Shown here in pieces: positions 19,712-23,181 of a DNA stretch of 64,000 nucleotides; positions within the stretch are counted from its first letter, which is position 1, and each line of letters opens with the position of its first letter. Under the pieces are notes generated by a model. It saw only the letters and a program-made list of their open reading frames with translations. It was not told the DNA's origin and ran no database searches. Source of the stretch: Rahnella variigena (GTDB taxonomy: Bacteria > Pseudomonadota > Gammaproteobacteria > Enterobacterales > Enterobacteriaceae); contig NZ_NSDJ01000001.1 of the NCBI RefSeq assembly GCF_003610915.1, positions 806,001-870,000 on the forward strand. The letters run 5' to 3'. The position numbers and the translations under genes are program-made.

Positions 19712-20734
19712 ATGAAAGCCTTAGCAAAACTCAAACGTGAGGAAGGCATCTGGATGACGGATGCGCCGGTGCCTGAAATGGGCCATAACGATTTGCTGAT
19801 CAAAATCCGCAAAACAGCCATCTGTGGCACCGATGTGCATATTTATAACTGGGATGCATGGTCGCAAAAAACCATTCCGGTGCCGATGGTGGTCGGCCAT
19901 GAATACGTCGGCGAAGTCGTCGGGATCGGGCAGGAAGTTAAAGGCTTCAGCATCGGCGACCGTGTTTCCGGCGAAGGTCATATCACCTGCGGGCATTGCC
20001 GCAACTGCCGCGGCGGGCGCACGCACTTATGCCGCAATGCGCAGGGCGTCGGGGTAAATCGTCCCGGTGCCTTTGCGGAATATCTTGTTTTACCGGCGTT
20101 CAATGCGTTCAAAATCCCGGACAATATTTCTGACGATCTGGCGGCCATTTTCGACCCATTGGGCAACGCAGTTCATACCGCGCTGTCTTTTGATTTAGTC
20201 GGGGAAGATGTCCTGATAAGCGGCGCGGGTCCGATTGGTATCATGGCTGCCGCTATCTGCAAACACGTTGGCGCGCGTCATGTTGTGATCACTGACATGA
20301 ACGAATACCGGCTCGAACTTGCGCGCAAAATGGGTGTAACGCGGGCGGTCAATGTCAGTCAGCAAAGCCTGCCGGACGTCATGGAAGAACTGGGGATGAC
20401 GGAAGGGTTTGATGTCGGGCTGGAAATGTCCGGCGCACCGGCAGCATTTCGCAGCATGCTCAGTGCGATGAATCACGGCGGGCGGATTGCCATGCTCGGC
20501 ATTCCTTCTGCAGAAATGGCCATTGACTGGAATCAGGTGATTTTCAAGGGGCTGTTTATCAAGGGGATCTATGGCCGGGAAATGTTTGAAACCTGGTACA
20601 AAATGGCGGCGCTCATTCAGTCCGGGCTGGATCTCACTCCGTTAATCACTCACCATTTCCCGATTGATGAATTCCAGAAAGGGTTTGATGCGATGCGCTC
20701 CGGTCATTCCGGAAAGGTCATTCTTAACTGGTGA
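19712..20734 (+). CDS. tdh: L-threonine 3-dehydrogenase
   Basis: Tdh oxidises threonine to 2-amino-3-ketobutyrate with NAD, supplying Kbl. The 340-residue zinc alcohol dehydrogenase family protein has the catalytic zinc cysteine in ICGTDVHIY, the [10 protein letters not shown] histidine-glutamate pair, the four structural zinc cysteines in [15 protein letters not shown], and the NAD-binding [12 protein letters not shown]. It is complete; only the terminator after it has been split by the insertion sequence. Confidence 0.97.
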
Positions 20735-20754: not shown

Positions 20755-20766
20755 AAAAAGCCCGCT
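20755..20766. terminator. Left half of the split tdh terminator
   Basis: AAAAAGCCCGCT forms the left arm of a rho-independent hairpin. Its partner AGCGGGCTTTTTT lies at 22222-22234, and the two arms are now held apart by the insertion sequence plus duplicated CAAC. Without the insertion the site would read stem AAAAGCCCGCT, loop CAAC, stem AGCGGGCTTTT and act on both strands. Confidence 0.88.
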
Positions 20767-20802
20767 CAACTGGACTGACCCCATAAAGTTGGACAGTTCA
20801 TG

Positions 20803-21588
20803 TTAAGCGGCTTTCAGGGCCTGGGTTCGGTATTCTACCGGACTCAACCCTTTTAATTTCAGGCTTATTCTTTCGTTGTTGTAGTAATGGATATATCCCT
20901 CTATCGCCTCCCTCAGTTCCCTGAGACTCCCGAACTGGCTCAGGTAAAAACACTCCGATTTCAGCGTACCGAAGAAGTTCTCCATTACAGCATTATCCAG
21001 GCAGTTTCCTTTACGCGACATACTTTGCGTTATGCCCTCTGCCTTTAATTTTGCCTGATAGGCTGCCATTCGATACTGCCAACCCTGATCCGAGTGCAAC
21101 AACGGGGCATCTTCTGGACTGAGCTTTGCGAACGCATCACGCAGCATGGTATTCACCATTTCCATCACCGGTCTTTCCGACAGGCTGTATGAGATGATTT
21201 CCCGGTTAAAAAGATCGAGAACCGGTGACAGGTACAACTTTTTACCCTGTATCGAGAACTCTGTAACATCCGTAACCCACTTTTCGTTGGCTTTTGATGC
21301 ACTGAAGTCCCGACTCAGGATGTTGGAGGCTGCCTTGCCCGCTTCCCCTTTCCAGGCGCGATATTTCTTCACCCTGATAAGCGACCGGAGCGACACCTCT
21401 GCCATCAGCCGCTGTACTGTTTTATGGTTCACCAGCAGCCCCTGCTTTCTCAGTGAGAGCGTGATCCTGCGGTAACCATAACGCCCTTTATGATGGTGGT
21501 ATATCTCTCTGATTTTGTCTTTCAGTCCGGCATGCCTGTCCACTCGCTTCAGCGCGTTCACATTGTGATACCACGTACTGCGGGACAT
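20803..21588 (-). CDS. IS3-family transposase OrfB (DDE catalytic domain)
   Basis: A 261-residue catalytic part. An HTH_21-like segment (KDKIREIYHHHKGRYGYRRI) precedes the integrase core with the DDE triad: aspartate in WVTDVTEF, aspartate in LLHSDQGWQY, and glutamate in AVMENFFGTLKSE, followed by the conserved lysine. The frame extends upstream of the ATG at 21588 without a stop and can be joined to OrfA by a -1 shift near 21651-21656, giving residues ISELRRNYALSDLLRAAG before the ATG. The functional enzyme is most likely the OrfAB fusion. Confidence 0.93.
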   Translation of the reverse strand: MSRSTWYHNVNALKRVDRHAGLKDKIREIYHHHKGRYGYRRITLSLRKQGLLVNHKTVQRLMAEVSLRSLIRVKKYRAWKGEAGKAASNILSRDFSASKANEKWVTDVTEFSIQGKKLYLSPVLDLFNREIISYSLSERPVMEMVNTMLRDAFAKLSPEDAPLLHSDQGWQYRMAAYQAKLKAEGITQSMSRKGNCLDNAVMENFFGTLKSECFYLSQFGSLRELREAIEGYIHYYNNERISLKLKGLSPVEYRTQALKAA

Positions 21589-21641
21589 CCCCGCTGCACG
21601 CAGAAGGTCACTAAGCGCATAATTACGCCTTAGTTCACTGA

Positions 21642-22166
21642 TTATTGCGGCTTTTTGCCGTTTTTCTCGCTTTGAACTAAGGCCTTTAGCTTTTTTAGGT
21701 AGGCATTCTCTGCACGCAGGTAACGGAGCTCAGCCCGCAGCTCTTCGGGAGATAACTTTTCCAGCGCCTCATCGGTAAGTGGGGATGCTTTTTTGGGTTT
21801 TGTCATGCCTTTGCTCCGGCCGGGTTTTATGCTCAGAAGTCCATTCTCACCAGCGTCTTTGTAGACATTAACCCAGTGCCGGACGACGGTCTCGTTTGAG
21901 ATATTAAACCGTGCGGCAGCTTCGCGCATTGAAAGTTCTTCACCGAGAACAGTCCGGACAACAGCAATCCGGAATGCCGGAGAATGGCGGTCATTTTTCC
22001 AGGTAATGCCATCAATACCGTGTAATTGCCAGGCTCTGACCCAGCGACGAACGGATGTTCTTTCGACACCAAAACGTTCTGCGGTCCGTTGTGTCCCGTC
22101 ATTGCCGTAGAGGTAATGGCTGACCACAGCCATTCTGGTTTCGAGGGTATATTTTGGCTTCGCCAT
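21642..22166 (-). CDS. IS3-family transposase OrfA (helix-turn-helix protein)
   Basis: A 174-residue protein starting MAKPKYTLETRMAVVSHYL. It has two helix-turn-helix segments (TAERFGVERTSVRRWV and AAARFNISNETVVRHWV) and a C-terminal leucine-zipper-like stretch (LEKLSPEELRAELRYLRAENAYLKKL). It binds the inverted repeats. The frame is open to 22220, but the ATG at 22166 fits the family. The last codons GGC AAA AAG CCG CAA TAA include an A-rich slippery site for -1 frameshifting into OrfB. Confidence 0.9.
   Translation of the reverse strand: MAKPKYTLETRMAVVSHYLYGNDGTQRTAERFGVERTSVRRWVRAWQLHGIDGITWKNDRHSPAFRIAVVRTVLGEELSMREAAARFNISNETVVRHWVNVYKDAGENGLLSIKPGRSKGMTKPKKASPLTDEALEKLSPEELRAELRYLRAENAYLKKLKALVQSEKNGKKPQ
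21651..21657 (-). other. Probable programmed -1 frameshift site of the IS
   Basis: On the coding strand AAAAAG lies just before the OrfA stop. Slipping back one base on AAA AAG continues as GCC GCA ATA ATC AGT GAA and stays open into OrfB. It is a shortened form of the A-AAA-AAG heptamer used by IS150. Confidence 0.6.
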
Positions 22167-22221
22167 AAAAAACTGCACCTTACTCAGTTGGGTGTCCAAC
22201 TTTTGGGGTGCAGTCCACAAC

Positions 22222-22234
22222 AGCGGGCTTTTTT
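22222..22234. terminator. Right half of the split tdh terminator
   Basis: AGCGGGCTTTTTT, the right arm complementary to 20755-20766. Read on the minus strand it would originally have ended the transferase operon that begins at 24407. The insertion leaves that operon without an intact hairpin before the IS. Confidence 0.85.
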
Positions 22235-22251: not shown

Positions 22252-23181
22252 TCAGGCTTCCGGTTCTGCCTTTTGTTTCTCTGCATCCGTCAGATATCGC
22301 ACTTTGCGGGTGTAATCCTGCCCTTTAAACAGCAGTTCATTGTCTGGCGAGGCCAGATACTTTTGCCATTCTGTCAGCGGGAAACCGCCGTGCGCGCCAA
22401 TGACCTCTTTCGGAATCACCGACGGCGTGCCGCCAATTTTCTTCGAGACCGGCCAGTTCATCCAGTCGCCGAGATTCACGCTTTTAATGTCCAGAGTGTC
22501 GAGCATCGCCGCCAGGGGCAGCTGATCGGTCGGTGGCTGATTATCTGGCAGGATATTCCAGGTATCTCTGAAAAACATAATCCACAACGGGCACAAACGT
22601 TCCCAGGTTTTACGCGTCGCCGCTAAAAATGCGCCGTTGACGTGGTCAACGATATAAGGCCGCACGCTGTCTTTGTAATACGCTGGAATAATTTCAGGGT
22701 CACAATCCCCGAGTTTGGCAATCATTTTGCCCTGACGGAAACTCGAATAAATATGATTTTCATGCAGCTGAATTTCAGGCATTTTCAGCAGATTCAGATC
22801 AGAGTCGATCATCAAAATGCCGTCAGTTTTAGCCTGCAAAGGCGCCAGCAGTTTGATCAGACGGCTGAGATAAATTTGTTTATAGCGATAATCGCCGGAT
22901 TTAGTTTCGGGATTCAGTGTCACGATGCGGACTTTTTCAGGCAGAGGCCGGAACAGGCTGGCATCCTGATCGGTCACAATGACAATTTCCTGCAATTGTG
23001 TCGCGAATTTGTCGGCAAATTCCGCGCATAAACAGGCTTCTTCAATGTAGTCAGCACCCGCGGAAGGAACGACGACAGAGGTGATATTATTCTTTGGCGC
23101 GCCTGCCTTGACGGTATCGGCATAAGGCAGATTGTGGCGTGAAAGAATATGACGATATTTAGAGTTTAGAAATTTGAACAT
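22252..23181 (-). CDS. Putative glycosyltransferase of unassigned family
   Basis: A 309-residue soluble protein with a Rossmann-like N-terminal half (ITSVVVPSAGADYIEEACLCAEF, EIVIVTDQDASLF) and a DSD motif at residues 126-128 (GILMIDSDLNLLK), as in metal-dependent GT-A enzymes. VNGAFLAATRKTWERL and IGAHGGFPLTEW later in the chain could form the acceptor side. I do not recognise a named family. It follows the GT4 gene by two bases, so the two form an operon, presumably for LPS or another surface glycan. The downstream terminator is split by the IS. Confidence 0.65.
   Translation of the reverse strand: MFKFLNSKYRHILSRHNLPYADTVKAGAPKNNITSVVVPSAGADYIEEACLCAEFADKFATQLQEIVIVTDQDASLFRPLPEKVRIVTLNPETKSGDYRYKQIYLSRLIKLLAPLQAKTDGILMIDSDLNLLKMPEIQLHENHIYSSFRQGKMIAKLGDCDPEIIPAYYKDSVRPYIVDHVNGAFLAATRKTWERLCPLWIMFFRDTWNILPDNQPPTDQLPLAAMLDTLDIKSVNLGDWMNWPVSKKIGGTPSVIPKEVIGAHGGFPLTEWQKYLASPDNELLFKGQDYTRKVRYLTDAEKQKAEPEA

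Follow-up and report, generated by a model that had tools for sequence, protein, structure and literature searches.

Within the 64,000-nucleotide stretch of Rahnella variigena DNA analysed here (the window), an insertion sequence lies between two convergent ORFs and splits the terminator predicted between them; 'terminator' denotes a prediction from sequence throughout. The locus is made up of:

19712..20734, plus strand: ORF, tdh (named in an earlier, sequence-only reading of this DNA), whose transcript reaches the left half of the split terminator
20755..20770: left half of the split predicted terminator, with an A-tract, the arm GCCCGCT and the target copy CAAC
20771..22217, minus strand: IS150-group element (IS3 family), 1447 bp
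20771..20818, plus strand: left end of the element, with an inner GGCTTT at 20809-20814
20803..21588, minus strand: orfB, DDE transposase with D107, D167 and E203 (D-59-D-35-E)
21642..22163, minus strand: orfA, two helix-turn-helix (HTH) domains at about residues 9-52 and 64-117
21690..21696, minus strand: A6G slip motif, expected to give OrfAB by frameshift
22164..22217, minus strand: right end of the element, with the terminal repeat and a leader hairpin CTGCACC...GGTGCAG, then T6, directly before the orfA ATG
22218..22234: right half of the split predicted terminator, with the target copy CAAC, the arm AGCGGGC and a T-tract
22252..23181, minus strand: convergent ORF of 309 aa, whose transcript reaches the right half of the split terminator

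The two ends of the element, TGGACTGACCCC and TGGACTGCACCCC, and the CAAC on both flanks (20767-20770 and 22218-22221) were read directly from the sequence, which bears out the boundaries and flanking repeats given by the sequence-only reading. By its ends, minus-strand orfA and orfB, DDE triad and A6G motif, the element is placed in the IS150 group of the IS3 family, on the criteria in the accessible part of PMC5771124. Its OrfB has D-59-D-35-E where the group has D(57-60)D(35)E, and matches profile NF033516 at 326.9 bits (cut-off 160); an HTH in OrfA and terminal inverted repeats are both present, as are two ORFs with an A6G window of the AnG type from which OrfAB would be expected. Removal of the element and one CAAC leaves GATGAAAAAGCCCGCT-CAAC-AGCGGGCTTTTTTC at the tdh site, which folds with exactly CAAC as a four-base loop, as had been claimed.

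The further claim that the two convergent operons have lost their terminator is doubtful on one side, because the right end of the element forms a hairpin of its own (-22.8 kcal/mol), with a T6 run between it and the orfA start. A similar leader hairpin and T run occur in related elements, the T run being shorter in ISKpn1, and the right-end hairpin is possibly the element's own terminator or a shield against read-through. At the left end, GGCTTT can pair with the flanking AAAGCC arm to form a chimeric hairpin. Repair of the terminator by the left end was considered and rejected: some folds of the 11 left junctions lack the pairing although most have it, it brings no U-tract, and it also coincides with codons at the end of orfB.

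The genome (5,499,108 bases in two contigs) contains 11 full copies of the element, 99.4-100% identical, and one 43-bp left-end piece. By eye, all 11 copies and the remnant interrupt a GCCC...GGGC palindrome that is bordered on one or both sides by an A- or T-tract; tabulating every genomic copy, as the sequence-only reading had proposed, thus gives 11/11 in terminator-like hairpins by eye and 10/11 by score, and supports its view that the element is placed outside genes. The score was taken around the insertion point, with a hairpin threshold of 8.5 that, like the other cut-offs, was chosen within the analysis. The eleventh copy (L004) scores 7.8, since its hairpin is long. A hairpin together with an A4 or T4 tract was found by script at 8/11 insertion points. 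At displaced positions around the same loci, which overlap and are not independent, a hairpin was scored in 1.29% and a hairpin with an A4/T4 tract in 0.18%. The target site duplication (TSD) is 3 nt in eight copies and 4 nt in two; one copy (L003, TGA opposite CGA) has none. By crude ORF calls, 6/11 copies lie between convergent ORFs. The 11 targets are, by eye, 11 different palindromes and not a dispersed REP, repetition having been searched for at the tdh site.

The remnant (L012; G000:C1:4093677-4093716) is a 43-bp left end inside a terminator-like hairpin that folds around it at -25.0 kcal/mol; a deletion that ran from the inner AAGCGG of the left end to the GCGGG arm could explain it.

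The element has a preference among arm sequences. As background we used a simple terminator finder on 462,530 bases (twenty 20-kb stretches plus the window minus the element), which returned 86 sites; since it took loops of 3-10 only, long-loop sites such as L001 and L004 are undercounted among them. Arms of the form AGCCC...GGGCT are present in 10/11 copies and in 7/86 background terminators, a contrast that tells against 'hairpin loops in general', the target suggested by the sequence-only reading; for GCCC...GGGC the figures are 11/11 and 10/86. Genome-wide, 114 intact AGCCC-N3-20-GGGCT sites are left, against 37 of the reversed pattern, and AAAGCCC-N3-20-GGGCT gives 49 forward and 55 reverse strand-hits (104), against 4 and 3 for a control pattern. 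AAAGCCC alone is common (83 in the sample, about 987 genome-wide on both strands by extrapolation) but only these 104 strand-hits lie in an intact palindrome, which argues that the dyad matters; so arm sequence and dyad both count.

Empty sites in congeners, a comparison also proposed in the sequence-only reading, were examined at three of the 11 sites (tdh, L001 and L005), and hairpins were found in 13/13 congeners at each. Downstream of tdh an unbroken stem-loop is present in each of the 13 other genomes of the genus, although in G010 (L170) it is diverged and has no adjoining T run; at L001 and L005 the hairpin exceeds the threshold within the middle 120 bases. At these three sites the hairpins are therefore older than the element. 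A 338-base query over the tdh site found the orthologous site in 14 genomes and five weak extra matches confined to the hairpin.

In one congener, a 54-bp right end identical to that of the window element adjoins a GGGGCTT arm (L025; G002:C630:8884-8937), and a search of that genome found no further part of the element. Partial within-genus relatives with one end only (L024, L033, L038, L042, L043 and others) were left unclassed, and so were L047 and L049, each seen at one end.

The targets of relatives at 79-92% nucleotide identity in Rahnella sikkimica, Kosakonia, Shimwellia, Citrobacter, Pantoea and E. coli are AGCC-type palindromes or ones like them, and in most an A- or T-tract is present. 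The arms are not necessarily GCCC: they are AAAAAAAGCCTCAG...CTGAGGCTTTT at L127, AAAAAAGGCCGCA...TGCGGCCTTTTTT at L130 and AAAAAAACCGGGA...TCCCGGTTTTTTT at L022, whose element shows 70% identity along part of its sequence. Of nine E. coli records listed, four (L134-L137) were fetched; all contain the same degraded copy, which has no hairpin and no TSD. At hisIE-ugd in E. coli (L132/L133), an 84%-identical element adjoins IS200-like DNA that recurs many times in the species; the left part of a his-ugd query recurred many times, one fetched example adjoining an IS200 gene. When the unoccupied site at the his-ugd end was sought in E. coli, no record contained 80% of the query, and a related hairpin was found in one strain only.

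Further afield, eight multicopy genomes of the same order (OrfB 52-55% identical) gave a hairpin at 31/36 sites, the other five falling below the threshold, a terminator-like site (A4/T4) at 25/36 and a TSD at 30/36. A ninth, G370 (OrfB 51%), gave hairpins at 4/4 sites, with no T-tract. This sample comprised 40 copies from the nine genomes, with others set aside (for example six listed in G181 and several at contig ends), and the copy numbers are 'at least' values, the best six candidates per genome having been scored. The four G370 copies fetched (L276-L279) all lie in a repeated palindrome of the GGAGCCGGGATTGT... type, a REP-like target in another genus. Among 14 further single-copy loci, five had end repeats of at least 20 matches, two of which lay in hairpins with a TSD; L195, L200 and L201, whose ends were convincing, had neither hairpin nor TSD.

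A more distant set (OrfB 54-61%) comprised 71 loci, of which 39, mostly from Bacillota, had ends with a TSD and were kept, the 32 others being dropped. A hairpin was scored at 32/39 of these resolved sites (7/39 were below the threshold) and a terminator-like site at 27/39, by a tract test that reaches slightly wider than the one used for the same-order set; in three of the five hairpins that had no scored tract (L055, L066 and L075) the tract is, by eye, inside the stem. The control, copies of the IS3-InsF group, gave a hairpin at 2/20 and a terminator-like site at 0/20. It comprised 20 of 29 copies listed in four multicopy genomes, with ends set by aligning copies; a TSD was found in 11/20, and as 9/20 had none, some control ends are possibly a few bases off. 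It replaced a first IS3-InsF control in which ends were resolved in 3/27 loci (30 fetched, L301, L290 and L303 excluded), none of the three being in the local top 5% for hairpins. That many distant relatives share the terminator habit suggests that terminators are a target where genes suffer little harm.

The position of the cut was measured by how far the TSD lies from the A-tract/GC junction of each arm, a ruler framed within the analysis after some of the sites had been seen. In the clade of the window element (22 sites, 19 definable) 17 sites have the nearer arm base at 6-8 nt, one at 9 and one at 11; five of its six long or asymmetric hairpins are cut 6-7 nt from one arm and one is cut mid-hairpin. 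Among the same-order relatives (36 sites, 28 definable), 9/11 long or asymmetric sites are cut 5-8 nt from one arm and two near the middle, which brings the pooled count for the two groups to 14/17 at 5-8 nt and three near the middle. The ruler fails in the distant set (39 sites, 30 definable), where 4/19 long or asymmetric sites are cut 5-8 nt from an arm and 10/19 near the middle. At L001, L005 and L021 most of the duplicated bases fall within the stem when the empty site is folded, the cut being 7 nt from the base of one arm, which again does not suit loops in general as the target. Loop targeting as a general rule was rejected, the ruler being the better fit in the window clade. For that clade and its same-order kin the target can be read as a duplex half-site plus a ruler, whereas the distant elements may recognise the loop.

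Taken as a whole, we think it highly probable that the transposase of this IS150-group element selects intrinsic-terminator palindromes, by a half-site and a ruler that lead it to low-cost sites. The transposase would recognise one arm as a duplex half-site, binding close to its A-tract/GC junction, and the element would be joined 6-8 nt further in; an inverted second half-site, or the hairpin formed by it, would be required or at least strongly favoured. The stems of ordinary terminators are short, so the ruler usually lands in the loop, and loop position would then usually be its by-product. Terminators are plentiful and outside genes, and copies could pile up there at low cost; the right-end hairpin with its T6 might also shield the transposase gene from transcripts crossing the broken terminator. 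That the transposase, and not selection alone, chooses the target is suggested by the contrast with the control group together with the preferred arms.

The same data could instead reflect recognition of structure, the transposase attacking the loop of an extruded hairpin of any sequence, whether a cruciform or single-stranded DNA in replication or transcription. This would suit the wide variation of arm sequences among relatives that keep the hairpin, and the ten mid-hairpin cuts in the distant set, but sits badly with the 14 off-centre cuts pooled from the window clade and same-order kin, the stem cuts at L001, L005 and L021, and the excess of AGCCC arms over background terminators; on balance we regard it as unlikely. 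A transposase attracted by RNA polymerase as it pauses or terminates at the hairpin would account for the T-tracts scored by script at 25 same-order and 27 distant sites. As ISKpn1 and the G370 element are found in palindromes without T-tracts, and arm sequence matters, such coupling to transcription seems distinctly improbable.

Kinship was read from an OrfB tree of 43 rows. There the sister of the window clade is IS150 of K-12 (99/94), ISKpn1 falls within the clade next to a Kosakonia pair (94/75), the terminator-targeting L130 branches outside ISKpn1 (95/93), and the Bacillota and other same-order elements lie outside the clade. ISKpn1, to which the sequence-only reading had correctly pointed as kin, is the closest named element in a plasmid search and shares with the window element its ends, its organisation and its location in palindromes; at 79% nucleotide identity, however, the two are not near-identical, and the four ISKpn1 copies fetched lie in GC-rich palindromes or mismatched half-palindromes without a T-tract. 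Insertion of ISKpn1 into REPs (Klebsiella palindromic units) and REP/PU targeting by ISKpn1 and IS1397 are established in the accessible part of PMC1525189, where the target choice of IS1397 is credited to its transposase. IS1397 differs by description from the window element in having the REP/PU of E. coli as its targets.

Ordinary REP/PU targeting of this kind, with the terminator as a degenerate REP, might thus be proposed for the window element, given the position of ISKpn1 inside a terminator-targeting clade and the GCCC in the targets of both elements; but the 11 targets are different hairpins, and the tdh-site query returned only its orthologues and five weak hairpin matches, which makes this reading very improbable. 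Random insertion with selection sparing only copies in harmless terminators is barely credible: terminators are intergenic and six of the element's own copies lie between convergent ORFs, but displaced positions are seldom terminator-like, the control copies never, and neither an arm preference nor a fixed distance is expected from selection.

Two ISKpn1 copies in Klebsiella pneumoniae ATCC 13883 (L053/L054) have mismatched flanks that would make matching palindromes if swapped, as if the chromosome had been rearranged by recombination between them.

The second HTH of OrfA is a candidate target reader, although a weak one. It is the part most divergent from ISKpn1 (53% identical, compared with 71% for the first HTH and 83% for the OrfB core), which is why it is proposed; it is also the part that changes fastest in two relatives that target terminators, with identities of 61% for the second and 75% for the first HTH in L129, and 64% and 84% in L130, and this weakens the case.

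IS150 itself (OrfB 63% identical to that of the window element) was sampled as nine E. coli copies (L332-L340) picked from 40 listed among 3429 matching records. Six of the nine lie beside hokA, hokB or hokE, some being the same site in different strains; the other three are between cysH and cas3, in rbsR and in unannotated DNA. A TGAGGC-type half-site mostly adjoins the TSD, its complement doing so in rbsR, where the half-site has no hairpin around it. At several of the sites, folding of the strand antisense to hok gives a hairpin with a T-tract, putatively the Sok terminator. The hairpin score was reached in only 1/9 of the fetched copies; the K-12 copy scores 2.4. The hok-adjacent cluster in E. 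coli is possibly a target hotspot. According to the accessible part of PMC5419217, evolved lines repeatedly acquired IS150 insertions at hok, mokB, ldr, cycA and nadR; two of the insertion positions given there, looked up on REL606, fell in other genes. As a warning, such repeated insertions in evolution experiments may mark target hotspots and not selection.

A wider proposal, advanced tentatively and as one that may well need revision, is that the IS150 group ancestrally targeted intrinsic terminators, across phyla; its transposase would read an A-tract/GCC half-site, perhaps via the second HTH of OrfA, and cut a fixed 6-8 nt inward, the REP/PU targeting of ISKpn1 and IS1397 would be a derived re-tuning, and the IS150 hotspots at hok/sok in E. 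coli would be set by terminator-like half-sites rather than by adaptation alone. The half-site code offered here is testable.

REP/PU targeting by ISKpn1 and IS1397 is known; for terminators as the target of a DDE insertion sequence, we found no report in the open-licence PMC literature, a limited negative in that subscription journals lie mostly outside it. Two other systems come close. Rho-independent terminators serve as targets for group IIC (bacterial class C) introns, which insert downstream of the stem-loop, according to the accessible part of PMC3522654. They resemble the window element in having intrinsic terminators as targets, but they are retroelements found downstream of the stem-loop, whereas the window element has a DDE transposase and lies between the arms. 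Tn7, like the window element, inserts at the end of a gene near its terminator; it does so at attTn7, a single site chosen by reading glmS. Terminator targeting would help to explain the pile-up of elements of this kind between genes. Because terminators are numerous and outside genes, a DDE transposase that finds them gains a safe haven, as the group IIC introns have done by another route.
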